DNA from: Sphingosinicella sp. BN140058
Lineage (GTDB): Bacteria; Pseudomonadota; Alphaproteobacteria; Sphingomonadales; Sphingomonadaceae
NCBI RefSeq assembly: GCF_004135585.1
Contig: NZ_CP035502.1
Coordinates: 1-64,000, forward strand
DNA length: 64,000 nt
Reading direction: 5' to 3'
In this document: in pieces, positions 15,372 to 42,345 of the stretch
Layout of the letters: every line of letters begins with the position of its first letter
How positions within the stretch are numbered: position 1 is the first letter of the stretch
Made by a program: the position numbers and the translations under genes
Notes under the pieces: model-generated
What the model was told of the DNA's origin: nothing
Databases searched by the model: none
Seen by the model: only the letters and a program-made list of their open reading frames with translations

Positions 15372-16235
15372 TTACGCCGCGAGGAGCAGGGGCAAAGCTG
15401 TGACATCGTCGCTTACTCGAGACCGATCGAGCACTGGGTAGGGGAGATGAGCCAAGGGGCGGTCGGCAATCTTCGCGGCCTTCGTGAGCGGGAACACGTA
15501 GACATGGTTCCCTGGGTGCCGTCGCTTTCGAAAGAAGCCGCGATCGATCAGGCTGGCGATCCAGGCACGCCCGTCTTCGCCGGCGGGTCGCTCGGCACCG
15601 CGGCGGATGAGCTCGTCGATGGCGTAGCCTTCGCCTTGCTCCCTGTTCCGGATTTTGGAGAGCGCTCGCTCGCAAAAGACTTGTCCATCGGGCGTGAGCG
15701 TCTCGGTCTTGGGTCGACTGCGTCCGCGGTAAGCTGCCCCAAACACTGAATAGATCTGGCCGCAATGGCCGCCGAGGATAACTCCGCTGGAGCCGACGCG
15801 CCGCATTGGGTCAGCGTAGGATAGAACCGAGATGATGCCCTGCTTCTCCTGGCGAAGGTGCCTGAATGCGCGGGACAAGAACCAGGTCTCACCGTTGCCG
15901 GCGACTTCATCGAGCAGCACGAGGCGGCCGAGCTCGACGCCAGCGTTGTAGCTAGTCAGGCCAGTGTGCTTGATGATGGCGGCGTTGTTCATCGGGACCG
16001 AGAACGTGGCAACGCCAACCAGTCGCGACCGGCCGGCGGCGCCGTTTCGAAACAAACCGACCGAGAGCCGCGATGCCGGAAACGAGCCCGAATAGTGCTG
16101 TTCGATGACAAACGGCCGAGCCATCTTGCCACAATCAATCACGTCGACCGCGTACTCGGAGGGGTCGATCACGGTGCTCGCGGGAACAAACTTATTGCGG
16201 CGATCGCGCCAGCGCTGCGAACGATCGGTAATCAA
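15372..16235 (-). CDS. Mom-like DNA modification protein (GNAT-type acyltransferase fold)
   Basis: From about residue 46 the 287-residue product reads EQHYSGSFPASRLSVGLF, RLVGVATFSVP, VELGRLVLLDE, a serine/phenylalanine helix, and ISVLSYADPMRR followed by GQIYSVFGAAYRGRS. This order is that of Mom-related proteins of phages. Mu Mom, a GNAT relative, converts adenine in DNA to a carbamoylmethyl form that blocks restriction. The last 100 residues (from about 175) are an added helical domain. Start: TTG at 16235 preceded by AGGGAG; the open frame continues upstream into the helicase gene but without an SD. It is 44 nt downstream of that helicase, probably one operon. Mom of Mu needs a Com activator; none is visible. 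Activity is inferred from similarity. Confidence 0.6.
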   Translation of the reverse strand: MITDRSQRWRDRRNKFVPASTVIDPSEYAVDVIDCGKMARPFVIEQHYSGSFPASRLSVGLFRNGAAGRSRLVGVATFSVPMNNAAIIKHTGLTSYNAGVELGRLVLLDEVAGNGETWFLSRAFRHLRQEKQGIISVLSYADPMRRVGSSGVILGGHCGQIYSVFGAAYRGRSRPKTETLTPDGQVFCERALSKIRNREQGEGYAIDELIRRGAERPAGEDGRAWIASLIDRGFFRKRRHPGNHVYVFPLTKAAKIADRPLAHLPYPVLDRSRVSDDVTALPLLLAA

Positions 16236-16279
16236 TTTCTTCTCCCTGCAAGTGCCATCGGCACAGCGGGCATGCCGTC

Positions 16280-17788
16280 TTACATGATGTCGAAATCGTG
16301 CTCGATGCGAGCCTCGTTCATGATCTCGTCGTAGAGCGGCTGAGCGATCGAGAGCGTCTGCCTGCCCCGCGTAAGTACAACATAAAGAAGATTGATTTCG
16401 GAGTTGTACTCCGTGGGCGTGATCCTCTTGCGGCTGAGCATGGCCCGAAGCTCGTTGGGGCCGAGGAAGTCGTCGAGGACAACGGTATTGTCCCACTCGC
16501 GCCCCTTGGCCTTGTGTCCGGTCGATAGGATAAGCTGCGCGTCGGTCTCGTCCGGCTGGAAGCGCGCTTTGATGTCTACCAGGATCTCTGGGATAGCCGT
16601 CGTGTATTGCTCGACGATGCGCACCAGTCGGATAAGATCAGGATCCTCCTCGGCCTTGGCCGCCTCCTTGCAGTCGTCCCACGTCAGAAAGCGCGAGACC
16701 AATGGATCGATGAATTGGTTGGGCTGCTTGGTGTACAGAGCGTAGCCCGCTCGAACCTGACTGATGAGCTCGTCGATGCCGCCCACCATGTGGTAGGGGA
16801 GCTTCATCGCCACGAGGCCCTCGAAGAGCCTGAAGTTCGTTCGGGCTAGGATCGTGCAGCGGCGCTTCAGGCGGCCCTCGTAAGGCAGAACGAAGCTCTC
16901 CTGTTTCTCGAAGCCAACGAGCGGCCAGGTGGGCGGCGTCAGGCTTTGAGAAAGGACGTAGTTGGCCACAGCAGCGATCTTCGGGCCGAAGCGGAAGGAT
17001 TTGGAGAGAGGGAAGACGGGCCCCGGGAAAGAGTCCATCGCGTTCTCGGCGCCGCGGAACGCGTAGATGGACTGCCACGGATCGCCGACGACCTTGGATG
17101 GCAGCTGCGCCTTGCGCGCGATCTCGAGCAGGACGGGGTTCCAGTCCTGGGCCTCGTCGAGGAGGAGGTAGTCGAAGCCGGTGATGGCTCGAGTGAGCTG
17201 GAACTTCTTGAGGTACATGTCGTGTGTGATCGGCAGCTCTGAACGATCGAAGTCCATGAACCTGTCGATGATCGCAGACACCATCGGCACGCAAGCCGCA
17301 CGAGTTTGGATGGGGAAACCGGATAGGTGGTACTCGCGAACCTCATAGTCACCGGAGATCAGGAAGTTCTGAATGCTACGGAGGACCGCTCGGCGGACGC
17401 TCTGCTCCTTCATGCTCCCCACGAGGCGGAGGAGGTCCTGGCAGCCGTCGAGATGATCTGGCCGAAGGTTGCTCTTGATGATCCGGTCCTGGTGCCGCCG
17501 CATGTTCAATAACTGGTAGGCATGGGCGTGCGCCGTCTGGGTGCGGATGTGACGGGGGAAGCGTCCCTTCGCCTCCGCGGCAATCGGAGCGTTGAAGGCT
17601 AGGTACAGTCCCGAATAGTCGCTCCACGCGTGAGCATATTCCACGAGTGAGGTGGTTTTCGAGCATCCGGCGCCGGCAATCCAACGCGCTGTCTCCGACG
17701 GCGGAGAGGCGATGAGAGCTTGCTGCTCAGCAGTCAGAGGATGGCCGCTCACGCCGATGGGGACGTGCGACTTCGGTGCTGTTGCCAT
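16280..17788 (-). CDS. UvrD/FBH1-like superfamily 1 helicase
   Basis: This 502-residue protein has the SF1A helicase motifs in order: LTAEQQALI (Q motif), Walker A AGAGCSKTT at 38-46, LLLDEAQDW near 210 (motif II), GDPWQSIYAFRGA (motif III), TGHKAKGREWD (motif V) and LLYVVLTRGRQ (motif VI). Short length and the motif III form fit the FBH1-like group that removes recombinase filaments or unwinds DNA. The second Walker A glycine is replaced by serine (GCSKT instead of GSGKT), which may alter ATP use. It heads an operon with the Mom-like gene. The promoter ends only six nt before the ATG, so its mRNA may be leaderless. Confidence 0.8.
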   Translation of the reverse strand: MATAPKSHVPIGVSGHPLTAEQQALIASPPSETARWIAGAGCSKTTSLVEYAHAWSDYSGLYLAFNAPIAAEAKGRFPRHIRTQTAHAHAYQLLNMRRHQDRIIKSNLRPDHLDGCQDLLRLVGSMKEQSVRRAVLRSIQNFLISGDYEVREYHLSGFPIQTRAACVPMVSAIIDRFMDFDRSELPITHDMYLKKFQLTRAITGFDYLLLDEAQDWNPVLLEIARKAQLPSKVVGDPWQSIYAFRGAENAMDSFPGPVFPLSKSFRFGPKIAAVANYVLSQSLTPPTWPLVGFEKQESFVLPYEGRLKRRCTILARTNFRLFEGLVAMKLPYHMVGGIDELISQVRAGYALYTKQPNQFIDPLVSRFLTWDDCKEAAKAEEDPDLIRLVRIVEQYTTAIPEILVDIKARFQPDETDAQLILSTGHKAKGREWDNTVVLDDFLGPNELRAMLSRKRITPTEYNSEINLLYVVLTRGRQTLSIAQPLYDEIMNEARIEHDFDIM

Positions 17789-23788: not shown

Positions 23789-25669
23789 ATGAGTAAGCTG
23801 ACCGGCCGCGCGAAGGCGGCACTTTTGATAACCGCTTGTGTAGCAGCGGCGGGCGCCGCCGAGGCGAAGCGCTCGAAGGAAGTGAGCGCGCCGCCGATGC
23901 AGAGCGCGACAGCTGAGAAGTTCGTGGGTGACAACTTCTCGATGGGTCGGCCGGCCGTGAGGCGAGTTCGTCTGACGGGCGACTTTTTCGCTCTGAAGCC
24001 GGTCGGTGGAGAGATCCCGCAGTCAATCCGAGAAGCCAAGGTCCGGATCGATTTCGCTGGTCAGCAGCCCACCTTCGACGATCTGCTCATGCTTCTGGAA
24101 GAGCGGGGCCTTTCGGTCATCCTTGGCTGGGATGACGGCTCCTACGGGATCGATGACGAAGGAGGCGAGATCGCGGTGTCGTCAGGATCGGTGAAGCCTT
24201 CGAAGAGCGACAAGTCGGACGACGGGGAGGCCTCCCAAAAGGCGGAGCCTGCTGGGGAGATCCTGGCCCCAGAGCCGGCCATGACCGCTACGCTGGGCGC
24301 GCGGAAGGCAGTCGGCGCAGGCGACCTGAGGGGGAGGGCATTGCCGTTCCGGCGGTACGAGGGCACGCTTGGCGGGCTCTTCCGCCAAATCCAGCGGTCG
24401 ATGGGCGTGACCCTCTGGTGGAACGAGGGGATCTACGTTGCTCCCGTCGGCCGGTACTCGGTCATGCTGCCGCAGAACCGGGATCTGATGAATCAGGTCG
24501 TAAAGGAGCTGAAGGCGAAGGGTGCGAGCAATGTCGTTGCGTCGCTCCAGGCCGGCACCGTCTCGTTCGTCGCGCCGGGCGCCCTCGCGGAAGAGGCGAT
24601 CCGGCCGTACCTTCTGCGCCTTGGCAGGAATGCGTCTGAGGTGACCATGCAGGTCGCTCTCGTCTCTGTGACGATGAACGAGAACGCATCTCGCGGCTTC
24701 GATTGGTCTCAATTCGGCCTGACGTTCGGCCGGCCGCCGAGCTCAGGCGCGGGAGCGGGGACGGGGACAGGGTCAGGTGGATCTGTTGGTTCTGGAACGC
24801 TGCTGGGCGGCACGAGTGGCACCCCAGCCACCGGGGCTGATGCTCTGCCGACGTCCGGTCTGTTCTCGCTCGGCCAGGATGCGCTGCGCGTCTTCAATCC
24901 GGCTGCGACCATCCTCGGAGCTACGCGACCGCTGGACATCACGGGAGCGATCAAGTTCCTGTCGAATTACGGCAACGTCGCTGTCGATCAGAACGTTGAG
25001 GTTCGAACTCTCGCGGGCACAAGCGTGAACTGGCGCTCGGGCGAAACGATCCCGTATGTGTCAGGGGTCGGAGCAACGACCTACGGAGGCCAGTCGGGCG
25101 GTTTCGCCGGCGCGATGGGGTCCGCGCAGACCGAGGAGCTCGAGACGGGCCTCTCACTCAAGCTCGCGCCAAACTACGAAGCCGCCGGCGGACTGGTGAC
25201 GGTGGCCTTCGACCTCGAACTCGTCGAGCTCATCGAGATGGTGAAGCTCGACGCCGGTAACCAGCTCGGCTCGTTCACTCAGCCGCGTACGCGAGAGCAG
25301 AAGCTAGACGACATCGTACGCATCCCGGTTGGGGAGACTGTGGTCCTTGGGGGCCTGCGCCGGCAACTCGCGTCGGTCGACAAGAATGGGCCCTTTGGCC
25401 TGTACGGCATCGGCTCCAAGACGAAGAAGAATGAGACCCAGACGGTATTCATCATCCTTCGCCCGACGGTGACTGTCTACGAGGTTGCTGGTCTGGATCA
25501 GCCCGTCCCTGGCAAGTCGAACGAGCTGACCGTTGGGAACGATGGCGAGCCATGGGCGGCGCCGGAAGGCGGTTATCGCGGCACGAACCTTTTTGGCGCC
25601 CGCGTGGACGCTGCGGGGCCCGATCGTCGCCGGTCTATGGCCCAGCCGGAGAAGAGCTATGAGCAATAA
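23789..25669 (+). CDS. pilN: type IVb pilus secretin, PilN-like
   Basis: This 626-residue protein starts with a lipoprotein-type signal (LLITAC, Cys 17), as PilN of R64 does. Residues about 95-130 (QPTFDDLLMLLEERGLSVIL) form an STN/N0-type domain, and about 205-290 further ring domains. The C-terminal 350 residues carry the secretin signature: VTMQVALVSVTMNENASRGF, SNYGNVAVDQNVEVRT, VNWRSGETIPYVSG, ETGLSLKLAPNYE and IPVGETVVLGGLRRQ. It should form the outer-membrane pore for the pilus. A Gly-rich insert (about 315-345) is unusual. Its stop overlaps the next gene. Confidence 0.85.
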   Translation: MSKLTGRAKAALLITACVAAAGAAEAKRSKEVSAPPMQSATAEKFVGDNFSMGRPAVRRVRLTGDFFALKPVGGEIPQSIREAKVRIDFAGQQPTFDDLLMLLEERGLSVILGWDDGSYGIDDEGGEIAVSSGSVKPSKSDKSDDGEASQKAEPAGEILAPEPAMTATLGARKAVGAGDLRGRALPFRRYEGTLGGLFRQIQRSMGVTLWWNEGIYVAPVGRYSVMLPQNRDLMNQVVKELKAKGASNVVASLQAGTVSFVAPGALAEEAIRPYLLRLGRNASEVTMQVALVSVTMNENASRGFDWSQFGLTFGRPPSSGAGAGTGTGSGGSVGSGTLLGGTSGTPATGADALPTSGLFSLGQDALRVFNPAATILGATRPLDITGAIKFLSNYGNVAVDQNVEVRTLAGTSVNWRSGETIPYVSGVGATTYGGQSGGFAGAMGSAQTEELETGLSLKLAPNYEAAGGLVTVAFDLELVELIEMVKLDAGNQLGSFTQPRTREQKLDDIVRIPVGETVVLGGLRRQLASVDKNGPFGLYGIGSKTKKNETQTVFIILRPTVTVYEVAGLDQPVPGKSNELTVGNDGEPWAAPEGGYRGTNLFGARVDAAGPDRRRSMAQPEKSYEQ

Positions 25670-26867
25670 GGGTGGCAAATCGAAGTTCGGCCTTCCCTTC
25701 CGGGGCCGAGCGCGCGGCGAGGCGATGGCGGCAGCCATCGCCGCTGCGGGTCAAGCAAGCTTCGAACCGACGTCGGCGGGACCGGCGCCAGTCCAGCAGG
25801 ACAGCCAAGCTTTGCCGGCGCCAGGCAGCGCATCTCCGGCGTCGCAGGCCCCAGCGGCGCAGGATCTGGAGGTCTCTGGTCGCAGCGGTAGGGTTGTGAA
25901 GGGCGGACCGGTCCCTGCGAACGAGGCGGACAGCAAGCGACGTGATCGCGAGCCTGCGCCGGTGAAGAAGGACAAGGCGGTCCGCCCGAAGAGCTTCAAG
26001 CCGGACCGCGGCAGCAAGAAGGCGAAGGGCGAGGAGCATTTCTCGATCCCGAACCTCGTTGCCATCAATTTCTACCGCGGCCTCACGAAGGCGCGGGAAG
26101 TCGAGGTCATTGCGCGTGCCTTCGTCGAGGAGAAGTTCGCCGCTCCGAATGCATCCTTCATCTACGTGCAGGAATGGCGCGACGGCTTTGCCGTTGAGAT
26201 GCAGGAAGGTGGCGGTCGAGCGTTCCTTCCCGATGTGCTCGCGATGCTCGACGACGACCCGAACCGCATCTGCGCGGTGCCGATGGTCAATCGCGCCCTC
26301 CAGGTCCGGTTCGACCATGAGAGCCAGACGCTCGAAGCGATCATGCTGCCGCAGACTCAGGCGCCGCCCGAAGGATCGTTTGTCCCGCTGCAGACGGCGA
26401 AGATGCTGCCGATCGACCGGCGTGGGTCGAAGGTGTTTCTGACCGGCGTCGGGCTGCTGGCTGCGAGCGGCATGTCGCTCGTCTTCTCGTTATCGGCGCT
26501 GTTTCTCGATACGAGCGCATGGGCGCTACCTCGCTTGGCAATGAGCGATGTTGCCAGTTTGCCGAGCGCGCAGAGCGAGAAGGTAAAGGCGGCACTGAAC
26601 GGCGCTGAGTGCGTGGCGAAGATGGAGTTCGCAGGTGCTGCTTGGAACATCGTTCCTGGGTGGGACGATGGGAACGGTAATTGCACGTCGCAGAGGCAAA
26701 TTGAGCCGATGGCTGCGCCGGAAGGCGCCGAGGCGATGACGGGCGTCGAACCTGCCGAAGCAAGCGGAGGGATCCCCATGTCGGTCGACGGTCCGCCGTT
26801 ACCTGGCGGGCCGCCTCTGCCAGGCGCTGTGCCACCTAGCGCCGTGCCGCCACCGCCCTTGCCGTAG
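25659..26867 (+). CDS. bitopic inner-membrane pilus assembly protein (PilO-like position)
   Basis: The ATG at 25659 overlaps the secretin stop and has GGAGAAG upstream. The 402-residue product has a disordered Ala/Pro-rich N-terminus, a folded cytoplasmic domain (about 130-290, HFSIPNLVAINFYRGLTKAR onward), one membrane helix near 305-327 (VFLTGVGLLAASGMSLVFSL) and a short periplasmic domain with two cysteines, ending in a Pro-rich tail. By order in the locus it corresponds to PilO of thin-pilus systems, linking the cytoplasmic ATPase to the secretin; sequence alone does not prove this. Confidence 0.6.
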   Translation: MSNKGGKSKFGLPFRGRARGEAMAAAIAAAGQASFEPTSAGPAPVQQDSQALPAPGSASPASQAPAAQDLEVSGRSGRVVKGGPVPANEADSKRRDREPAPVKKDKAVRPKSFKPDRGSKKAKGEEHFSIPNLVAINFYRGLTKAREVEVIARAFVEEKFAAPNASFIYVQEWRDGFAVEMQEGGGRAFLPDVLAMLDDDPNRICAVPMVNRALQVRFDHESQTLEAIMLPQTQAPPEGSFVPLQTAKMLPIDRRGSKVFLTGVGLLAASGMSLVFSLSALFLDTSAWALPRLAMSDVASLPSAQSEKVKAALNGAECVAKMEFAGAAWNIVPGWDDGNGNCTSQRQIEPMAAPEGAEAMTGVEPAEASGGIPMSVDGPPLPGGPPLPGAVPPSAVPPPPLP

Positions 26868-26899
26868 AACCAGAGCTGTTGCTCTAAGGAGTGTAGAGA

Positions 26900-27274
26900 A
26901 TGTTGGATCCAGCACAGCGCCGGCAATACGGCCTTGGATCGATGATTTTGGCCGCCGTGTTCGTGGCAGTCTCTGCCGGCGCCGGCGTGGCGAACGCCGT
27001 TCGCCGCGACGCGGTGGTCGAGCAGGTGAAGACTTCCGACCAGGAATGCGAAGCGCGGGTCCGGGCGCTCGGCGCGACATCCGTCAGCCGCACGGAAACG
27101 ACCATCACTGCGGTATGGTCGTCGCTGGAAGGGGGTTACTCCACGCTTGGTGATTCCTCGGCGGCTGCAATGTCGTGCCCAGGTTGGAAGATGACAGGAT
27201 TCTGCATGGGACAGGAATGTCCCACGCCGGGGGTGAAGCTCGAACTCGGCAGGGTCTCGTCCGAAGAAGAATAA
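26900..27274 (+). CDS. small exported or membrane-anchored protein of pilus locus (PilP-like position)
   Basis: The 124-residue product has one N-terminal hydrophobic helix (SMILAAVFVAVSAGAGVANAV) that is a signal anchor or signal peptide, and a periplasmic domain with four cysteines (ECEA, SCPG, FCMG, ECPT), probably disulfide-bonded. It lies 32 nt after the preceding gene; the DsbA-like protein at 35437 could oxidise it. Confidence 0.55.
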   Translation: MLDPAQRRQYGLGSMILAAVFVAVSAGAGVANAVRRDAVVEQVKTSDQECEARVRALGATSVSRTETTITAVWSSLEGGYSTLGDSSAAAMSCPGWKMTGFCMGQECPTPGVKLELGRVSSEEE

Positions 27275-27312
27275 TTTTTCCTGGGGGGGCTTTTGGCCGC
27301 GCAGGAACTATT

Positions 27313-27322
27313 GTAAATTTAC
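27313..27322. promoter_or_regulatory. AT-rich palindrome GTAAATTTAC upstream of the pilin genes
   Basis: A perfect 10-bp palindrome (extended imperfectly as TTGTAAATTTACGCAA, 27311-27326) stands out in the 230-nt gap between 26900-27274 and the first pilin. It is a candidate operator for the pilin promoter; the rest of the gap holds no gene. Confidence 0.35.
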
Positions 27323-28032: not shown

Positions 28033-28105
28033 GGCAAATGGGCCGATCCGACACGGGTCGGCCCACCGCTGCTCTGGGTCGGCTTGAGCTTGCCAAGGTG
28101 AAGAA

Positions 28106-28135: not shown

Positions 28136-28147
28136 TAGGAGAAAACG

Positions 28148-29998: not shown

Positions 29999-30002
29999 GA
30001 TC

Positions 30003-31640
30003 ATGGTAGCTTGGTTTGTCATTGCCATCGCGACGCTTGGCCTGTTGGGCTACATCGCGGTGAGTTCCGCTCAGACGATTTCGGTCACGACTGACGCTGC
30101 GGGCCGGGTTGAAACGGTCAGGCGTTTGGATAGTGTCGTGAACGCCATCCTCGTGCGCGCAGCCGCTGCGGACGGTACGGGCGCCATTTTCCTGCCTGCG
30201 GGTGCTGCCAACCCTGCGGGGCAGGGGTACGGGTTGCCGGCCGATCTCGCGCCAACGGCGGTGACGCCTTTCGGTCAACGCTTCGTCTACTGTCCATTCG
30301 GATCGGCAACCGGCACCGGCGCTGCGGTTACCATCTCGAACGCTAATGGCACAAGTTACGGAATAGCGACCACGACCCTCTCCGGGAGGGCATACGTGAC
30401 CGGCGGGCGCCCTGGTTACGCCGGATTGGCGGCCATGCCGAATCTGCTTGGCTATGTGCTGGCGCCGCGGACGAAGCTCTCAGCGACGCCGAGTTGCAAC
30501 GAAGTGGTCTACGACCCGGGCTCGCGCAGGTTTCAGGCGCCAGACGCGATCGTTCGCCCGATCGTTCGCGACGGCGGTGTCGACGAAGCGCGTACGGTGA
30601 ACTCTCGCAAACTGGTGTTTTTCGTTGCGCCGGGGGCCTCCGGCTCTGGCGCCTCTGCATCTGATCCGGCAGATTTCCAGACTGCTCTCGACTATTATCA
30701 ATCGAGGCGTCCTCTCGCGATGACCATACAGGCTGCGGCTGGCAATTATGACTTCAACCCCGGCTCGGTGACCACCGATGGGTTCGCCGACCGCTCAGAC
30801 CTTACCATACGGGGCGCAGGACCTACGTTATCGGTCTTCCGGTCAACCGCTCAGGGCTGGATGAACATCTCTGGACGGCTCACCCTCGACGGCGTCGGTT
30901 TCGACCAGTACGCCTTGATCCGCTCGTACAACGGGGAAGTCGTAGCGCGAAACATCACGGCTGGATCGATCCGCGGTGATCACGCGCTGATCACTCTGTT
31001 TGGAACGAACGTATTCAACAGCGGCGCCACCTACGGTTTGACGCTTTTCAACGGCGGATCGATCGAGGCGCAGGGTGCAGATATCACCATCGGGACGACC
31101 CTCGGCATCATGATCGCGCAGAACGGGCGGCTGACGCTCTCGGGATCTATCCTCAGGGCTGCAGGGCCAGTTCTGCTGTATGACGGCGCCGAAACCAACT
31201 TGAAGAACAACACGATCAATTACACGGCTGCGGTGAATCCGGGGCTGTTCGTGCAAAAGAGCAAGGCGACGCTGAGCGGAAACGTGATCTCGTTCGCTGG
31301 CTCTGCTCCGGTTGGAATTTCGCTGATGAACGGGTCGATCTTCGAGATGTCGAATGGCTCAATCAACGGGGCAGTTGTCAATCCAGTGGTGGACTCCGGT
31401 GCGCTCTCGGTTTCTGGATCTGGCACCCAAATGCGATCCTCGGGTGCTTGCTGGGCTGGAATCCTCTTCGGTGACTCGGTTGGAGCCTCCAGCGCTGTCC
31501 GAGCAGACGACGCGCTGCCCGCGGTCTCAACTCCAGCAACGGGACCGGAAGTGCAGGCTTACGCCGCCGCGCAAGCGAACAACGCTCGGCGCGGCGCTCG
31601 GCGCAGTACGAATACGTCATCCTGGACCTGCCTGAACTAG
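30003..31640 (+). CDS. PilV-like tip protein with pilin-type anchor and beta-helix domain
   Basis: This 545-residue protein has an N-terminal hydrophobic helix (MVAWFVIAIATLGLLGYIAV) and a pilin-like stalk, then from about 205 a right-handed parallel beta-helix: repeated Ile/Val/Asn ladders such as DLTIRGAGPTLSVFRS, RLTLDGVGFDQ, NGRLTLSGSILRAAG, TNLKNNTINYTAA and KATLSGNVISFAG. Beta-helix domains of this kind occur in adhesins and polysaccharide-binding proteins. In R64-type systems PilV sits at the pilus tip and selects recipient cells. GAGGTAGG precedes the ATG. I see no shufflon repeats. Confidence 0.6.
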   Translation: MVAWFVIAIATLGLLGYIAVSSAQTISVTTDAAGRVETVRRLDSVVNAILVRAAAADGTGAIFLPAGAANPAGQGYGLPADLAPTAVTPFGQRFVYCPFGSATGTGAAVTISNANGTSYGIATTTLSGRAYVTGGRPGYAGLAAMPNLLGYVLAPRTKLSATPSCNEVVYDPGSRRFQAPDAIVRPIVRDGGVDEARTVNSRKLVFFVAPGASGSGASASDPADFQTALDYYQSRRPLAMTIQAAAGNYDFNPGSVTTDGFADRSDLTIRGAGPTLSVFRSTAQGWMNISGRLTLDGVGFDQYALIRSYNGEVVARNITAGSIRGDHALITLFGTNVFNSGATYGLTLFNGGSIEAQGADITIGTTLGIMIAQNGRLTLSGSILRAAGPVLLYDGAETNLKNNTINYTAAVNPGLFVQKSKATLSGNVISFAGSAPVGISLMNGSIFEMSNGSINGAVVNPVVDSGALSVSGSGTQMRSSGACWAGILFGDSVGASSAVRADDALPAVSTPATGPEVQAYAAAQANNARRGARRSTNTSSWTCLN

Positions 31641-31652
31641 GAGGAAACGCTC

Positions 31653-31719
31653 CCCGCCGAGGAAGATTTCTGGATTAATGCTTTCAGGCGGGGAAAAGTC
31701 CCTGTAGCGTCATCAAGAG
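31653..31719 (+). promoter_or_regulatory. leader element before the pilus ATPase gene
   Basis: CCCCGCC (31653-31659) can pair with GGCGGGG (31687-31693) across a 27-nt loop that contains TTTCTGGATTAA, repeated exactly at 12945-12956. Immediately after it, GGGGAAAAGTCCCTGTAGC (31690-31708) resembles GGGAAAAGCCTGTAGC at 17802-17817. Promoter or attenuator function is inferred. Confidence 0.35.
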
Positions 31720-31748
31720 AAGGCGGCTGCGGCTGCGGTGAGGGAAAA

Positions 31749-33644
31749 ATGTTCAGTTTCATTCGGCGCGGCGGTGGCCGCAAAGGCAGCCTGTCTATCC
31801 ATGAAGGCGCGCTCGCAAGACAGCAACTGCTGAGCCGGGCGTTGGGAGATCGACCCAAACCACCTTCCGAGTCAGCCGGCGCGGCCGACGTGCCGAGCTT
31901 CTTGGTTGAGAAAAACCTTCTAGAGGTTGGCGCTGCCCGCTCGGCGATCATGGAGTCTCGCGCCCGCAATGTGCCCGTGTCGCAGGTCCTGGGCGAAACG
32001 GGTGCCGTCCCGCGCGAGAAGATCGTTGCTGCAATCGAGAACACGGACACAGGCCGGCTGGCGCAGACTCTGGACTTCGACGTCAGTCTACCGAAGAAGG
32101 TGATACGCGAGCTCAAGATCGTCGTTCACGCTCAAACCGACACGAAGCTGATGCTCTCGTCGCTCTCTAGCATCTCGCTCGTTCGCCAGGCCCTGGCGCC
32201 CTACGATGATCGCGAGATCCACGAGGTCCCGTTCTCGTACCAGCGGTGGGAAGAATTTGAGCAGGGAATAGAGCGCATCTCGGAGCCGGGAGAAGGGAAG
32301 GTCGACCTCGGGACCGATCTCTACGCCGATTCGATCATCCCGAAAGGGACCGAGGATGCGGAAGTGCTCGACATCCTTCTCGATCGCGCGGCGGCGAACG
32401 GTGCCTCGGACATCCATATTCATCCCGAGAAGGCGGTTTACGAGGTCTACCTGCGTATTCACGGCAAGCGGATGCTCGTCCATAAGTGGAAGCTCGATCA
32501 GTATCACCGCGTCTGTGCTATGGTGAAGGATCGCGCGAGCGTCGATCCGCTCGAAACCCGCGTGCCGCAAGACGGGTCGTTTTCGACAGTTGTCCGAGGC
32601 CGACCGTTCGACGTCCGCGTCGCGACGATCCCGACTGCCGGCAAAGAGCAAATCATCATGCGCGTGCTCGATCCGCGCCGGGCGCAGATGCCGCTGACCG
32701 CGCTCGGAATCACTCGTGTCGACGAGTGGCGGATGATCAACGAGCATCGAAACGGGCTGGTCCTGATCGTTGGTGCAACGGGGTCCGGCAAAACGACCAC
32801 TCTCAACGCGACGGTTCGAGAGATGCCGCGCATGGAGAAGGCGGTCTACACGATCGAGGACCCGGTCGAGTATCGAATTCCCGGCGTCACGCACGTCCAG
32901 CTGAATGATCAGGTCGGCCTCGATTATCCGCGGGCCATCAGGGCGTTCATGCGAGGCGATCCCGATGTCATCATCGTCGGCGAAATCCGCGACCCGATGA
33001 CCGCCGCGAAGGCGATCCAGGCAGCCGAGACGGGGCATTTGGTGCTTGCCACCATCCACGCCGAAGGTGTTGCGATGGCAATGCAGCGTTTGAAGGGGCT
33101 CGGAGTGCCAATCGAGGACTGCGAGATGCTCCTGCGTGGCGTGCTCGTCCAGTACCTCGTTCGGACGATCTGCCCGACGTGTGACGGAGCGCGCTGCGTC
33201 GAGTGTTTCGGCGAAGGCTACGCAGGCCGCACGGTCATCTCGGAGATCGCCCGCGTGCGCCGCCCATCTGACGTCGCCTTGATGATGTCTTCCGACGAGG
33301 CCGACTGGTACTGGGAACCGCTCTGGAAGGATATCGAGCTCAAACTGCTCAACAAGGTGACGGACGGCGCGGAGATCTACCGGACCTTCTCCACTGGTAT
33401 GGAGCCGTGGGCAGAGAAGTCAGAGGTGCTCCGCGCCGTTTGGACCGAAGAGCGCGCCAAGCGGCATATCGTTGCGGACAAGCTGGCTGTTGCCTCGATG
33501 GAGACCCTCTCGGGCGAGGAGAAGGAGCGTCAAAGGCGCATCGCGCTTGCGAGGATCGCACGCGGCCCCGTGGACGATGACGATGATGATGATCTGTCTG
33601 GCGAGGAGGCGGAAATCGGTGCCGCCTCCTGGTCCGCTGAATAG
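31749..33644 (+). CDS. pilQ: type IV pilus assembly ATPase (GspE/PilB/PilQ family)
   Basis: This 631-residue protein has an N-terminal GspE-N-like region (SFLVEKNLLEVGAARSAIME), the N2 domain (LLDRAAANGASDIHIHPE), Walker A GATGSGKTT near 341, Asp box YTIEDPVEYRI, Walker B DPDVIIVGEIRDPMTA and His box GHLVLATIHAE. A zinc-finger-like CPTCDGARCVECFGEG lies near 475-490, as in PilB/GspE. It should power pilus polymerisation from the cytoplasmic face. The C-terminus has a DDDDDDD tract. No separate PilT-type retraction ATPase is seen. Confidence 0.9.
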   Translation: MFSFIRRGGGRKGSLSIHEGALARQQLLSRALGDRPKPPSESAGAADVPSFLVEKNLLEVGAARSAIMESRARNVPVSQVLGETGAVPREKIVAAIENTDTGRLAQTLDFDVSLPKKVIRELKIVVHAQTDTKLMLSSLSSISLVRQALAPYDDREIHEVPFSYQRWEEFEQGIERISEPGEGKVDLGTDLYADSIIPKGTEDAEVLDILLDRAAANGASDIHIHPEKAVYEVYLRIHGKRMLVHKWKLDQYHRVCAMVKDRASVDPLETRVPQDGSFSTVVRGRPFDVRVATIPTAGKEQIIMRVLDPRRAQMPLTALGITRVDEWRMINEHRNGLVLIVGATGSGKTTTLNATVREMPRMEKAVYTIEDPVEYRIPGVTHVQLNDQVGLDYPRAIRAFMRGDPDVIIVGEIRDPMTAAKAIQAAETGHLVLATIHAEGVAMAMQRLKGLGVPIEDCEMLLRGVLVQYLVRTICPTCDGARCVECFGEGYAGRTVISEIARVRRPSDVALMMSSDEADWYWEPLWKDIELKLLNKVTDGAEIYRTFSTGMEPWAEKSEVLRAVWTEERAKRHIVADKLAVASMETLSGEEKERQRRIALARIARGPVDDDDDDDLSGEEAEIGAASWSAE

Positions 33645-33659
33645 CGCGTAGAGGACCGG

Positions 33660-34079
33660 ATGGGAAACATCATCGTCTCGTTGCTGACCCTGATGATGAC
33701 GCTGGCGATGATGTCGTTCGGCGCATACTCGAGCTTCTACGCCGCGCAGCGGGCCAAGGTGTCTACGGTGGTCGGGCGAACGTTGGAGCGGCAGCTAATC
33801 TACCTGGCAATGACTCGGGAGGACCTTGGGCGGGTTCCGACTGCCGGTGAAGTTTTGCCGGCCCGGATCAGCGGGGAGGATGGTGGAGACATCTCCTACT
33901 TCTACGGAACTGGTGCCGGGTACGGATACGTCTGTGCTCGGACCGAGCGTCGCGGCTGGAGGGAGGAAGCTTTCCAGCGGGTCCGCGATCAGCGACCCGG
34001 AGCGCTCTACGGTGGAGATTGCGACACGAACGGCGCCCCGTCGGGGACGTACGTCTCGGTAACGGTTAGGATAAGCTAA
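33660..34079 (+). CDS. small pilin-like or membrane-anchored protein
   Basis: The 139-residue product has an N-terminal hydrophobic helix (MGNIIVSLLTLMMTLAMMSF, then GAYSSFYAAQRAKV) and a small periplasmic domain with two cysteines (YVCAR, GDCDT). MGNIIVSLLTL recalls MSNVIIGLIG of the pilin-like set. Its stop overlaps the next start (TAATG), placing it firmly between ATPase and platform protein. Possibly a minor pilin. Confidence 0.55.
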   Translation: MGNIIVSLLTLMMTLAMMSFGAYSSFYAAQRAKVSTVVGRTLERQLIYLAMTREDLGRVPTAGEVLPARISGEDGGDISYFYGTGAGYGYVCARTERRGWREEAFQRVRDQRPGALYGGDCDTNGAPSGTYVSVTVRIS

Positions 34080-35266
34080 TGCCGACGTTTGCGGTTACAG
34101 TTCGTGACAACACGACGATCAAAAAGATCCCGGTTGTCGCAAAATCGCCGTCCGAAGCGCGATTCATCGCGCAGCGTCAGGGCGTCGTCATCACAAGCCC
34201 GCTCGAGATCAAAGAGCGGCAGGGCGGCGGCTTGTCGGCTGCAGAGCGCTACATCTTCCTGCACCAGCTCGCGACGATGAACATCGCCAAGGTGCCGCTT
34301 ACCACCGGTCTTCAGATCCTGCGGCAGAGTCACGGCGGCCGGATCGGCAAGGCAGCTGCATCGCTTGAAGCTGGCGTCGCGGCAGGGCGTCAGATCTCCG
34401 ACCTGATGTATGAAGACAAGCGCAACTTCCCTGGCGCAGTGGGACTGCTCGTCAAAGCCGGCGCGCAAGGAACAGGCGGCGCCGCGGCGTCTCTCAAGAA
34501 AGCGGCTGAATTCGAGCGGCAGATCCTTGGAGCGTCGACGAAGGGTGCGAAGGGCATCTATCAGGCTGGCTTCTGGGTCGTCGTGGCGACCATCAGCCTC
34601 TTCGCATGTCCGCTATGGCTGACGCCCTACCTTAAATCCTCGCAGCTCTTCACGCTTACAAAGACGCCGATCGAGTGGGGCTGGCTCGACATGGTCGCGT
34701 ACGCGACAGCTGCGTTGACGATGCTCTTCATGATGTTCGGAATGTTCCTGTTCTTCCTCATCACGGTGGGCCAGCGCATTTTCCCGCACTTCTCCGACGC
34801 GGTCGTCATGCGCTTGCCGTTCCTGAAGGACATCATCTTCACGCGGGACAATTTCGTTTCTTTGTACCGCTTCAGTCTCATGGTGAAGGCTGGCGTTACG
34901 CTGGAGGAGTCGCTGGAGACAACGCTCTCCGACACCCGAAAAGGCGCGCTGAAGGACGATCTCACGCGTGCGCTGCAGAACGTGAAAACCGGTCAGCCTT
35001 GGGCGGCGGATTTCCGCACCGTCCACCCGACGGACAAGGCGGCTTTGTCGATGGCGACGGATAAGGAGCGGCTGGGAGAGATCTTGGAAGAGGTCGCCGA
35101 CCAGAACAAGGCGATCTACGTACGCAGGCTGGAATTGATGCAGCCGATCATGGGAGCCATCGGCGGATTGTCGATGATTCTCGTCTACGCGATTACAGGC
35201 TTGTATTCGATAGTTCCGTTCAGCGAGCTGTTTGGTGCGTTGATGCAAGACGCCAGCGGATTCTGA
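34079..35266 (+). CDS. pilR: type IV pilus inner-membrane platform protein (PilC/GspF family, PilR-like)
   Basis: This 395-residue protein has the T2SF layout: two helical cytoplasmic domains (YIFLHQLATMNIAKVPLTTG near 58, and FVSLYRFSLMVKAGVTLEES near 260) and hydrophobic segments near 160-182, 205-235 and 360-385. It is the inner-membrane base that meets the ATPase. The single-copy order ATPase, small protein, platform fits R64 PilQ-PilR. It is last in the plus-strand unit and ends at a bidirectional terminator. Confidence 0.85.
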   Translation: MPTFAVTVRDNTTIKKIPVVAKSPSEARFIAQRQGVVITSPLEIKERQGGGLSAAERYIFLHQLATMNIAKVPLTTGLQILRQSHGGRIGKAAASLEAGVAAGRQISDLMYEDKRNFPGAVGLLVKAGAQGTGGAAASLKKAAEFERQILGASTKGAKGIYQAGFWVVVATISLFACPLWLTPYLKSSQLFTLTKTPIEWGWLDMVAYATAALTMLFMMFGMFLFFLITVGQRIFPHFSDAVVMRLPFLKDIIFTRDNFVSLYRFSLMVKAGVTLEESLETTLSDTRKGALKDDLTRALQNVKTGQPWAADFRTVHPTDKAALSMATDKERLGEILEEVADQNKAIYVRRLELMQPIMGAIGGLSMILVYAITGLYSIVPFSELFGALMQDASGF

Positions 35267-37097: not shown

Positions 37098-40000
37098 TCA
37101 GAGAACTTTCATCTCCAGCACGTCAGGATGTTGTGCGATGGCGGCCTGAACGTCGGGGGTGAGATTGAAGCACGCGGGCAGGACCTTGCGGGCCTTCTTC
37201 TCCCCGAGGTCGATCATGATGTCTAAACGGTCCTGACCGCGGCCGGCGGAGGTGAGGACGCGTCGCAGGTCCTCCCAGTTATGGCTTGCCTTGATGTCGA
37301 GGCGGATACGCTGCGGCGTTTCCGCTTTGCGGAAGGGCTTGGCCTGGACCATGCGCCACCGGCCCTCGTTGGGCTTCTTGGCGATGTCCGCGACGATGAT
37401 CTCGCCGTTGTCGACGAGGGTGGCGGCCGCAGTCGCGGCGAAGTCCTGGTCGATCACGCACTCGATCTCCGCCGATGCGTCCGAAATCTTGGCGAACGTG
37501 GACGCTCCCCGTGCCGATTTCGAGGAGCTTTCAACGCGAACGAGCACCGTGATCGCTCCGCAACCGACGAACTCGTCGATTTTGCCGAGTGCGACGCCGG
37601 CGTGGCGGCGGAGGTCAGACCAGGCGTTCGCGAGGGGATGCTCGTCGAATGAGATGCCGATCGCGTCGATCTCAGCGGCTCGCTTCTCATCTCGGGAGAG
37701 GTCGTCGACCTTCGGGCAAGCGGGCGCAACGAGATCGAAGAGTAGGCTCTGCCCAGATTGGCCGCACTCGAATTTGAGGCATGCGACAAGATGCTCAGCG
37801 GCAGCCTGGCGGTTCTTGTTGAAGACGTCGAGCACGCCCGCGGCCGCGAGAGCTTTGGCCTGCTGTGACGCGTTCCCATGAGGTGCCAGCGCCTTCGCCA
37901 AATCCTCGATAGACTTGATGCCCCGGCCGTGGGTGGCGGCTGATAGGGGAGCGGCGTAGCCGCCCAAGCCTTTCACGGCGCCGAGACCCCATCGGACGGC
38001 TGGCTGGCCGTCAGCTGTGACGTCCGGCTGAAATGCAACGCCGGACTTCTCGAGGGATGGGGGGAGCAGCTCGATGCCACGTTCGCGGGCTTCGCGAACC
38101 AGCTTGCGCAGCTTGTCGAAATCTTCGGCGTTGTAGGTAAGCGCGGCTGCATAGAATGCAGCGGGGTGATGCAGCTTCAGCCAAGCTGACTGCCAGCAGA
38201 GGAGAGCGTACGCTGCTGCGTGAGACTTATTGAAGCCGTAGCCGGCGAACTTGTCGATGGTGTCGAAAAACTGGATCGCGCGCTCGCGACTGATGCCGAG
38301 TGTGCGATGCTCGTGGATCTCGACGATCGTGACAGGCTCGATCGATATGATCACCGCGGCGCCGGCATCCTTGGCTGCCTGAGCGGTGAGGGCGTCGCCG
38401 CCGTCGGCTCGCTTCAGCTTCCTGTTCGACGGGATGCGCAGCACTTTGCCATCGTGAGTCTTCACAGAGACGTGCGAGACGATGCAGCCCTCGATGAACG
38501 TCTCGCGCTGCGCGTCCATCTCCGCTTGGATCTTCTTGCCCATCGCTCGGCGAAGCATGTCGGCGCCGCCGAGCGTATAGCCGGCGAGAATCTGGGCCAT
38601 CTGCATGATCTGCTCTTGGTAGACCGGAATGCCCTGGGTCTCGCTTAGCAGGCTGGCGAGGGCTGGATGGGGAAGCTGGAGGGGCTCCAACCCCGCTTTT
38701 CGAGCGGCATAGGTCGGGATGTTGTCCATCGGACCCGGCCGGTAAAGCGAGATGATGGCGATGAGGTCCTCGAAGCATGTGGGCCTGACTTGCTTCAAGG
38801 CCTTGACCATGCCCTCGGATTCGAGCTGAAAGATGCCGTGGCAGTAGCCCGCATTCAGCATCTCGAAAATCCCGTCGTCGTCGAACGGAATGTCCAGGAT
38901 ATCGAGATCAGCGTGCTCGGCATTCGAGGCACGGACATGCTCGACTGCGGCTTTGATGATGGTGGAGGTTTTCAGGCCCAGGAAGTCGAATTTGACCAAG
39001 CCGGAATCCTCGACACCCTTCATGTCGAATTGAGTGACGAGATCATCGCCAACGCCGGGATCGCGCATAACGGGCACGACCTCTCCCACGACGGGATCCG
39101 CGATGATGATGCCGGCGGCGTGGCGGCCGTGCTGTCGAACGAAGCCTTGCAGCGCTTCGCCCAGCTTCAGTGCGCGGTCGAGGTTTGGATCTTTCTTGAA
39201 GAAAGCTCGGACCTCAGGTGAGAGATAGCTCGGAGACTCAGGATCGGTCTCAGCGAGCGAGTAGGGGGCGTTTCCGGGCAGGTATTGCGAGGCGGCATGC
39301 GTGGCGCCTGCCGAGATGCCAAGACAACGAGCGGCGTCCCCGAAGGCCGAGCGCGATTTCCAGGAGCCGTGGGTGCCGATCGCGACGACGCGGTCCTCGC
39401 CGTACTTCTCTCGAACATACTGGATCGTCTCGTCTCTGCGGCTCTGGCAGAAGTCGACGTCGAAGTCGGGCAGGCTGACGCGTTCGGGGTTGATGAAGCG
39501 TTCAAACAGGAGGCCCCAGCGTATCGGATCGAGGTCGGTGATCCCCATTGCCCATGCGACGGCGCTGCCAGCGCCCGAGCCGCGGCCGGGGCCGACTGGA
39601 ATGCCTTTGCGTTTGGACCAGCCGATAAAGTCGGCGACGATCAGGAAGTAGCCGGCGAAGCCCTGTTTGCAGATGATGTCGAGCTCCGAGGCGAGGCGTG
39701 CGCGGTACTCGGCTTTAGCCTCCTCCGGAATGTTCGCGATGCGCGTCTCGTAGCCGGCCGCCGCAAGTTGGCGGAGCATCTCGTCTTCGCGCCCCTGGGC
39801 ATCCGGGAAGCGGGGTAGCATCGGCTTCTGGGATTGCGGTGCCGCGTCCGCGCTGCAGCGGAGTGCGAGTCGCGCGGCATTCTCAAGGACCTGTGGGGCG
39901 TCGGCAAAGAGGGCGACGAGCTCGGCGCTGCTTTTGAAATGCTGGCCGTTTTCGGGCCGGACCAGGTTTGCGTCGTCGATCAGCTTCTTGTGGTCGATTG

Positions 40001-40622
40001 CGCGGAGCAGCTCGAGCAGCTCGTAGTCTTTGGGCGAGCCGTAGGCGGCGGGTGAGGTCCCGACCAGAGGGAGGCTGTAGGCGCGCGAGATCCGATCGAG
40101 CACGGCTTCCGAGGCTCGGCGGCCGGTCGTTCGCGAGATCTCCAGATACAAGCGATCCTGAAACAACGGCATCATCCGCTTGAGCCAGTTGTTCGCCACC
40201 GACTTGTCGTGGTCGACCATGTTGAGGAGAGCTGAGCCTGGCGCTCCGGTCAGCAGGATCAGGCCCTCGGAGTGGGCCTCGAGGTCATCGTCGTCGATCG
40301 CAAGTGCTTCGGACGCCGCTTGGCGACGCGATAAGGCCAAGAGATTTGCCCAGCCCTGCGCCGTCTCAGCGATGAGCGTGATGCGGCCAGCCTCGGCATC
40401 GAAGTCGCAGCCTACGATGGGCTGGACACCTTCCTTTCGCGCAGCGGAGGCGAACTCCAGGGCTCCGGCGAGGCTGCGGTGATCGATAAGACCGAGCGCG
40501 GGTTGGCTCTCCTTGACCGCATAGCTCGGCATCTTCTTCGCGACGAGCGCGGATTGCATGATCGAGTAGGAGGAACGCCCGCGCAGATTGATCGCGGGAA
40601 GGGCATCGGCCGGAAGCGTCAT
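37098..40622 (-). CDS. dnaE: DNA polymerase III alpha subunit
   Basis: The 1174-residue protein has the DnaE order: PHP domain (1-270), then the C-family polymerase core with GPGRGSGAGSAVAWAMGITD, LPDFDVDF near 384-390 (two catalytic Asp), VKFDFLGLKT near 542 (third Asp), YQEQIMQMAQILAGYTLGGA, GYGFNKSHAAAYALLCWQSA and a C-terminal OB-like region. All polymerase Asp are present. The PHP start reads INLRGRSSYSIM where HxHSxYS is usual, so the metal site of this domain is lost and intrinsic PHP proofreading is unlikely; a DnaQ gene nearby can supply proofreading. GAG before the ATG; divergent from 40800. Confidence 0.95.
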   Translation of the reverse strand: MTLPADALPAINLRGRSSYSIMQSALVAKKMPSYAVKESQPALGLIDHRSLAGALEFASAARKEGVQPIVGCDFDAEAGRITLIAETAQGWANLLALSRRQAASEALAIDDDDLEAHSEGLILLTGAPGSALLNMVDHDKSVANNWLKRMMPLFQDRLYLEISRTTGRRASEAVLDRISRAYSLPLVGTSPAAYGSPKDYELLELLRAIDHKKLIDDANLVRPENGQHFKSSAELVALFADAPQVLENAARLALRCSADAAPQSQKPMLPRFPDAQGREDEMLRQLAAAGYETRIANIPEEAKAEYRARLASELDIICKQGFAGYFLIVADFIGWSKRKGIPVGPGRGSGAGSAVAWAMGITDLDPIRWGLLFERFINPERVSLPDFDVDFCQSRRDETIQYVREKYGEDRVVAIGTHGSWKSRSAFGDAARCLGISAGATHAASQYLPGNAPYSLAETDPESPSYLSPEVRAFFKKDPNLDRALKLGEALQGFVRQHGRHAAGIIIADPVVGEVVPVMRDPGVGDDLVTQFDMKGVEDSGLVKFDFLGLKTSTIIKAAVEHVRASNAEHADLDILDIPFDDDGIFEMLNAGYCHGIFQLESEGMVKALKQVRPTCFEDLIAIISLYRPGPMDNIPTYAARKAGLEPLQLPHPALASLLSETQGIPVYQEQIMQMAQILAGYTLGGADMLRRAMGKKIQAEMDAQRETFIEGCIVSHVSVKTHDGKVLRIPSNRKLKRADGGDALTAQAAKDAGAAVIISIEPVTIVEIHEHRTLGISRERAIQFFDTIDKFAGYGFNKSHAAAYALLCWQSAWLKLHHPAAFYAAALTYNAEDFDKLRKLVREARERGIELLPPSLEKSGVAFQPDVTADGQPAVRWGLGAVKGLGGYAAPLSAATHGRGIKSIEDLAKALAPHGNASQQAKALAAAGVLDVFNKNRQAAAEHLVACLKFECGQSGQSLLFDLVAPACPKVDDLSRDEKRAAEIDAIGISFDEHPLANAWSDLRRHAGVALGKIDEFVGCGAITVLVRVESSSKSARGASTFAKISDASAEIECVIDQDFAATAAATLVDNGEIIVADIAKKPNEGRWRMVQAKPFRKAETPQRIRLDIKASHNWEDLRRVLTSAGRGQDRLDIMIDLGEKKARKVLPACFNLTPDVQAAIAQHPDVLEMKVL

Positions 40623-40799
40623 TTCTTACTCTCAAAAGCGGAACGCACAGCGTCAAACACGGAACTGCCCCCGCCGAAGGCGCTCCCTCTCAATTTAGAC
40701 ACCTTCAGGCGTGGGAGGTGCCCCACAGCGAGTTTCCCTTCTTCCGCCTTGCATCCGCTTTGCGCATCGGTAGGTTCCCGGAGCATTCTGGGGGCAACG

Positions 40800-41336
40800 A
40801 TGAAGCGTTTCTTAGCCGCAGTTCTCGCGCTCAGCGCGGCCACGGTACCCACCGGGGCGGTGGGTGCTGGCGTTGTCCCGACGTCGCCTGGAACTACGGC
40901 ATCCGAGCTGATGGCCGGCGCAGGTGATGAGAGGCCCCTGGAGCCGATCGGCGCCCCAGAGCCGCTACCGCCCGGAATGAGCCTTGCGGCAGTTTGGGAG
41001 CGCCTGGATGGACAGCTGACCGCTTTGGTCGTTCATGTGGCGGCCGCACAAACGGAAGACGTTCGGTGCGGCTTATTGGACGAGGCGCGGCGCCATCGGG
41101 AGTTTCTGGAGAGCCTGGTCGAGAATGTGCTGGCCAATCGCGAGGCTTACATGCGTAAGCTGGACGTAATCCTGCGGCTTCATGGAAGCACCGACGGGAA
41201 AGGCGTCTGGTTTCTGGGAGAAGAATATCCCTGCAGAGGGCGCGAAAGGCTTGTCGCCGAGCGGACGGTACTGGTTGCTTTTGGGGATGCCTTGATGACG
41301 AAGGAGCGGTGGCTCGACCTGCGCGGCGATGAGTGA
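40800..41336 (+). CDS. exported hypothetical protein
   Basis: The 178-residue product starts with a Sec signal peptide (KRFLAAVLALSAATVPTGAV) and continues as a helical domain with two cysteines (RCGLL, YPCRG). GGGGG precedes the ATG at 40800; the frame is open further upstream but would overlap dnaE. It ends 4 nt before the convergent gene at 41341. Family not recognised. Confidence 0.5.
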   Translation: MKRFLAAVLALSAATVPTGAVGAGVVPTSPGTTASELMAGAGDERPLEPIGAPEPLPPGMSLAAVWERLDGQLTALVVHVAAAQTEDVRCGLLDEARRHREFLESLVENVLANREAYMRKLDVILRLHGSTDGKGVWFLGEEYPCRGRERLVAERTVLVAFGDALMTKERWLDLRGDE

Positions 41337-41340
41337 GGCG

Positions 41341-42345
41341 TTAGAATAGCAAGCCCTGCGCAGACAGTTGGGGTGCTGGTTTGTAGACTGGCACTTGCAA
41401 CGCCCAGCGGGGAGGAAAGAAGGGCTGAGAAAGGGCTTGCTGCGGCTGTCCGTAGCTCTGCTTGATCCGCGTACGACCGGCGATCCCGGGGAACTCTGGA
41501 TGTTTGACGCGAGCGTACTTGGAGACCTCGCAGTAGCAATTCTGGACGTCGATCAACTTGAGGCGGCGACCAAACAGGCCAGAAAATGAGAGACCGAGAC
41601 GCTCGAACTCTCTTTCTTGAACAGCCGTCGTCTCCATGATCACGTCGGTTGGGGATAGCTTACCAATCGAGCTGAAGCATTTGGAGATGCCGTCCAATGC
41701 TCCCGGCCCGGGGACAACGAACTCCTCCTCCGAGAAGCTGATGGCGTCGGAGTAGTTGATGTCAATCGCGAATTGGAACGCGAGGAACGGCCCAAGGCTC
41801 GGCTGGCCGCGGAGGAGCTCGTACACTTCGCGAAGGCTGCCGCAGCGGGCGATCCGAGCGGCGATGCCGTCCTCCATCATGCGGCTAAGAAGCCGGATGT
41901 GGTTGCTGTGCTTGCGGGCGTGTCCAAGATCCGGCGAGGGCATGATATAGGCTGCGGAGTAGATCGTCGCGCCGCGATCGAGCGCCCTGGTTAGTAGATC
42001 GTCCACCGCGGCTGCGTCGAAAGCTTGCCACGAGATGGGGCCGAAGGCGTGTTCAATCATCTCCCATGTGTCGACCTTGTTGAAGATCTTGAACAGGAGA
42101 ATCCTGAAGATTGTATCGGTCGGGTCGACCGACCTGTGATCGGCGTAGATGACCTCGCGGATGAGGTATTGGCTCACCCGGTCCGCCGCGCGGTAAGTGT
42201 TCGTGAAGCGGTGAGCCCGCAGGACTGGATCGTCGGTCCATGGGCCGATCGGATCTTCCAACCGTCGAAGGTACATGGCGTGTCGCTCGGCCGCGAAACG
42301 CCAATAGCTGTCTAGAACGACGGTAGGCTCAAGCTGGGGGTTCAT
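41341..42345 (-). CDS. 5-hmdU DNA kinase helical-domain / thymine pyrophosphorylase-like protein
   Basis: This 334-residue product reads DSYWRFAAERHAMYLRRLED, PWTDDPVLRAHRFTNTYRAAD, then FRILLFKIFNK, and near the C-terminus LIDVQNCYCEVSKYARVKHPE. These are the hallmark segments of the family described from hypermodified-thymine phages (HMUDK helical domain or alpha-glutamyl/putrescinyl thymine pyrophosphorylase-like, with a DNA glycosylase-type helical fold). Members are linked to attaching groups to 5-hydroxymethyluracil in DNA. The ATG overlaps the dnaQ stop (TGATG), so it is co-translated with a replication gene. No hydroxymethylase or P-loop hmdU kinase is visible in this window, so the actual reaction is uncertain. 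Confidence 0.6.
   Translation of the reverse strand: MNPQLEPTVVLDSYWRFAAERHAMYLRRLEDPIGPWTDDPVLRAHRFTNTYRAADRVSQYLIREVIYADHRSVDPTDTIFRILLFKIFNKVDTWEMIEHAFGPISWQAFDAAAVDDLLTRALDRGATIYSAAYIMPSPDLGHARKHSNHIRLLSRMMEDGIAARIARCGSLREVYELLRGQPSLGPFLAFQFAIDINYSDAISFSEEEFVVPGPGALDGISKCFSSIGKLSPTDVIMETTAVQEREFERLGLSFSGLFGRRLKLIDVQNCYCEVSKYARVKHPEFPGIAGRTRIKQSYGQPQQALSQPFFPPRWALQVPVYKPAPQLSAQGLLF

Follow-up and report, generated by a model that had tools for sequence, protein, structure and literature searches.

The stretch of DNA analysed here, hereafter the window, comprises bases 1-64000 of the 347,485-base plasmid contig (NZ_CP035502.1) of Sphingosinicella sp. BN140058, whose 6.07 Mb genome consists of two contigs, the chromosome and the plasmid. 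It carries a gene for a Mom-family protein, and a gene of the PF18723 family that lies between plasmid genes for DnaQ- and DnaE-type proteins (Table 1). A sequence-only reading of the window had taken the products to be a Mom-like protein and a member of the 5-hydroxymethyldeoxyuridine (hmdU)-kinase/pyrophosphorylase family, together forming a candidate set for DNA hypermodification. Profile searches bore out both family assignments, with scores too strong for either open reading frame (ORF) to be a chance one.

The PF18723 gene stands in the order dnaQ, PF18723, dnaE, without the usual partner genes of its family. The stop codon of dnaQ overlaps its start codon, as TGATG on this plasmid and as ATGA on the plasmid of Erythrobacter aureus YH-07 (NZ_CP031358.1, 407,975 bases, of which 82,976 were compared), in support of the translational coupling to dnaQ that had been proposed for the window. 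From gene order and overlap, PF18723, DnaQ and DnaE would be made from one mRNA. An ORF of 285 codons on the opposite strand (40479-41336, +) lies between the PF18723 gene and dnaE, and by eye appears signal-peptide-like from an internal Met; the E. aureus plasmid has a 191-base gap at this place. Upstream of dnaQ, the same strand run includes a LexA-type protein for which no counterpart was found on the compared part of the E. aureus plasmid. Literature searches on plasmid-encoded polymerase III, PF18723 and thymidine hypermodification did not find a description of the operon, which is no proof of its absence in print.

The PF18723 protein scored 345 bits against a family cut-off of 25, and is the only match to this family in the whole genome. 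The copy on the E. aureus plasmid is 62% identical. Residues are invariant across bacterial, archaeal and phage members of the family: in an alignment of 52 sequences, the window protein among them, 18 columns do not vary, and gp055 of phage M6, which is outside the alignment, holds 15 of these 18 residues. The window protein matches no P-loop family and contains no kinase domain. The possibility that it is itself a kinase was rejected on this ground, together with the failure to find the kinase families PF18748 and PF18751 in the genome. Its AlphaFold model is confident (predicted local distance difference test, pLDDT, 92.7), and a structure search with the model gave DNA-glycosylase-like matches headed by 8z2n (PUGT of phage PaMx11). 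Searches of the PDB with the sequence alone and with the family profile returned only unrelated proteins with E values above 0.2. A scan of viral_contigs found no relatives, and tblastn revealed distant ones in 472 of 50,697 phage records. Neither this protein nor the Mom protein was matched in PADLOC (E 0.001) or NCBIfam (E 1).

The partners expected of a phage-style pathway were sought by profile search in the whole genome. Neither the 5-hmdU DNA kinase PF18748, the kinase PF18751, the amino acid:DNA transferase PF18724 nor MazG_C (PF18722) was found, the controls being positive in all cases (phage M6 for PF18748 and PF18724, phage BouleyBill for PF18751, and the same-genus genome G543 for MazG_C). 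The P-loop kinase that had been expected outside the window did not appear in either family. The likewise expected dUMP hydroxymethylase, an extra thymidylate synthase (TS), was found neither by PF00303 genome-wide nor by tblastn on the plasmid; the sole PF00303 gene is chromosomal and presumably the housekeeping TS, and the short TS-like type described below escapes this profile. None of three such short proteins has a Pfam match, and four other TS encoded beside PF18723 (at two phage and two bacterial loci) all match PF00303. The short TS-like and dCTP-deaminase-like proteins, sought by tblastn on the plasmid contig alone, were not found there. When a set of 31 component proteins, which included two from the PF18723 family, was compared by tblastn with all 347,485 plasmid bases, only the PF18723 gene itself was matched, and a usual cassette elsewhere on the plasmid was rejected. 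The same proteins matched only PF18723 on the compared part of the E. aureus plasmid, and gave 160 matches, PF18723 included, in 11 other loci (L092-L102). A TET/JBP search also found none, but had no positive control, and absence is not claimed. At profile sensitivity, a phage-style thymidine hypermodification pathway is not supported by the genome sequence.

Elsewhere, PF18723 genes generally occur with such partners. Neighbours were counted by tblastn with component proteins at 43 other bacterial and archaeal loci (12 from genome contigs, 12 from plasmids, and 19 from genomes of the order or family of the window), and a gene of TS-like (the annotators' name), dCTP-deaminase-like or MazG_C/NTP-pyrophosphohydrolase type was present at 39 of them. 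The full cassette has the order acyl carrier protein, helix-turn-helix (HTH) protein, ImmA/IrrE peptidase, TS-like protein, PF18723, MazG_C. Other possible writers near PF18723 are a TylF-like methyltransferase (L027, L062) and a radical SAM protein (L043); in phage LuckyBarnes glycosyltransferases are found nearby, and in phage BouleyBill kinases, TS and MazG.

The Mom protein matches PF25680 with an E value of 6.4e-25 and 88.4 bits (cut-off 27.1), in an alignment that covers positions 3-201 of the 202 in the model and residues 29-267 of the protein. It also matches phrog_1384, "Mom-like DNA modification protein" (5.2e-26), and is the only PF25680 match in the whole genome. The TTG start at 16235 coincides with the first Met of the nearest relatives. 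In the PDB, its profile finds a single entry, the solved Mom of phage Mu (8bv8, 1.6e-9), which the single sequence also matches (E 0.0012). The E. aureus plasmid has a copy with 68% identity. Of the 72,556 plasmid records in PLSDB, 90 contain a relative, and in 60 cases the match covers 80% or more of the protein. The relatives come from plasmids of Streptomyces (37 records) and several sphingomonad genera, and among the 40 matches listed most are annotated as hypothetical. Related proteins carry the source name "Mom family adenine methylcarbamoylation protein", so that relatives have already been annotated; literature searches found no experimental report on a plasmid Mom. By homology, the protein is likely to modify DNA adenines and thereby to shield the plasmid from restriction.

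As a general functional set, Mom and PF18723 were rejected. Among 296 genomes of the order, each family occurs in 9 (8 of the Mom matches are over the cut-off), and only the present genome has both. Among the 72,556 plasmid records, PF18723 was found in 21 and Mom in the 90 mentioned above, and with 40 of these 90 listed, the E. aureus plasmid is the only record with both. The two families do travel together in one plasmid lineage. In the protein database, P0004 and P0127 come from contigs of 72,920 bases, and P0017 and P0124 from contigs of 144,510 bases, suggesting that they are two further PF18723-Mom pairs, each from a single contig. The plasmid-type proteins form a clade of 13 both in the PF18723 tree (140 sequences, support 0.98) and in the Mom tree (123 sequences, support 0.95). 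Both clades include the window copy, the E. aureus copy and the partners from the two same-contig pairs, albeit with partly unsupported inner nodes. The pairing is explained by inheritance on one plasmid backbone, which does not prove a joint function.

This backbone is evident from the comparison with the E. aureus plasmid. When 58 window gene models, hand-picked from the ORFs, were compared with it, 36 of them, spanning 173 to 44554 of the window, had matches with identities of 32-74%, and the gene order is largely kept. The highest identity is that of DnaE (74%). Only the E. aureus plasmid has a DnaE with more than 60% identity among 2,040 plasmid records matched, the other 29 plasmid matches among those listed being 34-39% identical. 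The initiator-like protein matched only E. aureus among the 72,556 plasmid records (E 1e-5), and gave weak partial matches in three other genomes among 396 of the order. The initiator is thus nearly private to this plasmid lineage. The two plasmids represent a rare lineage of large plasmids, with genes of its own for the alpha, epsilon and beta subunits of polymerase III. The G+C content of the plasmid contig is 62.7%, compared to about 67% for the chromosome (mean of five sampled 20-kb stretches), and no tRNA genes were found in the 64-kb window.

Table 1. Genes of the window discussed in the text, with coordinates, strand and the evidence for each assignment. SAM, S-adenosylmethionine.
Feature	Coordinates	Strand	Evidence
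Mom-family GNAT, predicted DNA adenine modification enzyme	15372..16235	-	287 residues, TTG start; PF25680
PF18723 (HMUDK_hel / aGPT-Pplase1-type) protein	41341..42345	-	334 residues, no P-loop domain; PF18723 3.8e-103
Plasmid DnaQ-like 3'-5' exonuclease	42345..43010	-	PF00929 1.4e-32; stop overlaps PF18723 start
Plasmid DNA polymerase III alpha (DnaE), downstream of PF18723 gene	37098..40622	-	Four Pol III alpha domains
Plasmid DNA polymerase III beta clamp (dnaN)	9981..11150	-	53% identity to annotated dnaN of E. aureus plasmid
Likely replication initiator	11252..12463	-	RP-C-like N-terminus PF03428 3.8e-7; DnaA_N-like C-terminus PF11638 3.5e-7
LexA-type DNA-binding domain protein	43035..43382	-	PF01726 1.2e-12
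Class I SAM DNA methyltransferase-like protein, upstream of dnaQ	43514..44554	-	PHROG DNA methyltransferases; 69% identity to dnaQ-adjacent gene of E. aureus plasmid
D12-class N6-adenine DNA methyltransferase	46487..47455	-	PF02086 3.3e-7
C5-cytosine DNA methyltransferase	47388..50420	-	1010 residues; PF00145 2.3e-21
Possible small nucleotide pyrophosphohydrolase, MazG-like by eye	9519..9830	-	PF04447 E 0.0029, 18.3 bits, below cut-off 23

Three DNA methyltransferases had been noted on sequence alone, and all three have support, the D12 and C5 enzymes from Pfam and the one upstream of dnaQ from PHROG only, with no Pfam match above cut-off. The overlap between the D12 and C5 ORFs is probably due to over-extension of the D12 one. 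Two nucleotide pyrophosphatase-like genes had also been proposed; in the part of the window ORFs that was scanned, one candidate was found, and it is below threshold. Further genes of the window include a 3'-phosphoadenosine-5'-phosphosulfate (PAPS)-reductase-like protein (173-1174, -; phrog_424 3e-24, PADLOC SspD 2.1e-11) that is 68% identical on the E. aureus plasmid, and a Strawberry-notch-type helicase-like protein of 1307 residues (57734-61657, -; PF13872, PF13871). The region 23789-35266 (+) encodes a secretin (PF00263), and other genes there match those that are annotated on the E. aureus plasmid as secretion/pilus ATPase and type II secretion F.

Taken together, we favour, at about even confidence, two separate functions on one lineage of large, replisome-carrying sphingomonad plasmids, i.e. 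masking by Mom and an orphan PF18723 protein acting at the replication fork. In line with the homology to Mu Mom, the Mom enzyme would modify part of the plasmid's adenines, perhaps also some in the host's DNA, and host restriction enzymes would be blocked. The PF18723 protein, an orphan of a thymine-modification family that would be made together with the plasmid DnaQ and DnaE, may act near the fork by flipping a pyrimidine out of the plasmid DNA and binding or processing it. Its predicted fold appears to resemble the group of DNA glycosylases and amino acid:DNA transferases, which makes pyrimidine flipping the most likely action, and fold and gene position together suggest that it handles a pyrimidine at the plasmid replication fork. 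Candidate substrates are stray 5-hydroxymethyluracil and bases that a hostile modification system has introduced. With respect to the earlier proposal of modified purines as well as pyrimidines, the adenine half is well supported by Mom homology and the partners needed for the pyrimidine half were not found. Since the phage enzymes that make and decorate 5-hydroxymethyluracil are among these, a phage-style hypermodified genome is not expected.

Several observations weigh against this reading. In the stretch compared, the three partner types are likewise missing from four of the 43 loci (L021, L029, L043 and L046), and a partnerless PF18723 gene is thus not unique to the window. Five loci (L023, L024, L026, L027 and L044) supplied the query proteins for the neighbour count and therefore match themselves, and at L028, an Acinetobacter plasmid counted as having a partner through a dCTP-deaminase-like match, the gene is split into two annotated ORFs. 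The plasmid records with PF18723 that were inspected number 13 of 21, that of E. aureus included. On the Nostoc sp. C057 plasmid p057_B (L025, 4418-14557) a full cassette adjoins holA, dnaX and dnaN, so that polymerase genes nearby do not exclude a cassette. At L027, a dnaQ-like gene was matched weakly (E 1.7e-4) in the vicinity of PF18723.

The PF18723 gene is unlikely to be a passenger that the operon has captured and that does nothing for the plasmid. Its relatives are indeed scattered on plasmids and chromosomes of many phyla, but the 62% identity and the dnaQ overlap have been kept on the E. aureus plasmid, where identities of the matched genes have fallen to 32-74%, and the plasmid-type sequences form a clade of their own.

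A role in counter-defence appears rather improbable. The cassettes of TS-like protein, PF18723 and MazG_C would then be defence systems, and the lone plasmid PF18723 a decoy or reversal factor that spares the plasmid's own replication. Such cassettes do occur in genomes of the same family, a form with dCTP-deaminase-like protein and MazG_C is present in G543, and in the tree the PF18723 protein of the plasmid falls within the cassette-type ones. PMC13092281 (2026) names thymidylate synthase and 5-hydroxymethyluracil kinase as two of the domains for which a part in defence has newly been validated, in a system that need not be the present cassette. Against this role, PF18723 is rare in the family (15 of 397 genomes, counting the present one), which implies a weak selective pressure. 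Similarly doubtful is a reading in which the protein, made with DnaQ and DnaE, would be a base writer or editor built into the replisome. It would modify a pyrimidine in fresh plasmid DNA, or strip a modification from it, without the phage 5-hydroxymethyluracil route, and so provide a second mark of self beside Mom-modified adenine, or immunity to thymine-modifying defence cassettes of the hosts.

Hypermodified pyrimidines alongside Mom-modified purines, with PF18723 acting together with an unrecognised hydroxymethylase and kinase, are very unlikely, for although PF18723 belongs to the phage M6 cassette, usually pairs with nucleotide genes at other loci, and looks undecayed in the window copy with its invariant residues kept, the kinase, transferase and MazG_C families, an extra PF00303 TS and, in the uncontrolled search, TET/JBP were not found.

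Two points of interest remain: a plasmid polymerase operon includes a PF18723 gene that lacks the customary neighbours, and the rare lineage to which the plasmid belongs also carries Mom. The former offers a handle on the core protein of the family by itself, a view not given by the phage cassettes. It may also help to find out whether plasmids are equipped against defence systems that modify thymine. With Mom in 90 plasmid records, adenine masking may be a trick of plasmids against restriction, beyond its use by phages.

In comparison with known systems, the plasmid and its E. aureus relative share Mom, dnaN, initiator, dnaE, PF18723, dnaQ, a methyltransferase and secretion/pilus genes as a common backbone, whereas the E. 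aureus plasmid has a sigma factor and flagellar genes where the window holds further methyltransferases and helicases. The cassettes of Sinorhizobium, Nostoc, Allocoleopsis and sphingomonads have a PF18723 component that is 46-64% identical to the window protein, but their other components were not found on this plasmid or on the compared part of the E. aureus plasmid. Phage M6 gp055 also belongs to PF18723, with 26% identity to the window protein in an alignment of 317 positions, and by gene order corresponds to the "aGPT-Pplase1" of the phage SN1 paper (PMC9476957). Beside it, M6 encodes as distinct proteins the kinase gp054 (PF18748) and the amino acid:DNA transferase gp051 (PF18724), together with the radical SAM protein gp053, Nmad5 (gp056) and an annotated TS; of the PF18748, PF18724 and TS families no copy was found on this plasmid. 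PUGT, the 5-PmdU glycinyltransferase of phage PaMx11, is the best fold match to the PF18723 model, and its sequence matches M6 gp051 at 1.2e-90. No sequence similarity between PUGT and the window protein was seen (M6 gp051 against the window protein, E 1.4), nor did the PF18723 profile find PUGT in the PDB. Compared to phage Mu Mom, the protein of the window is plasmid-borne and longer (287 versus 232 residues), and the PDB search aligns its N-terminal half only. On the other hand, both belong to the same Pfam family over nearly the full model, and the part aligned with Mu Mom (profile positions 26-155) takes in the His-Tyr pair (residues 47-48) and the L-x-R ... D ... N-x-E stretch.

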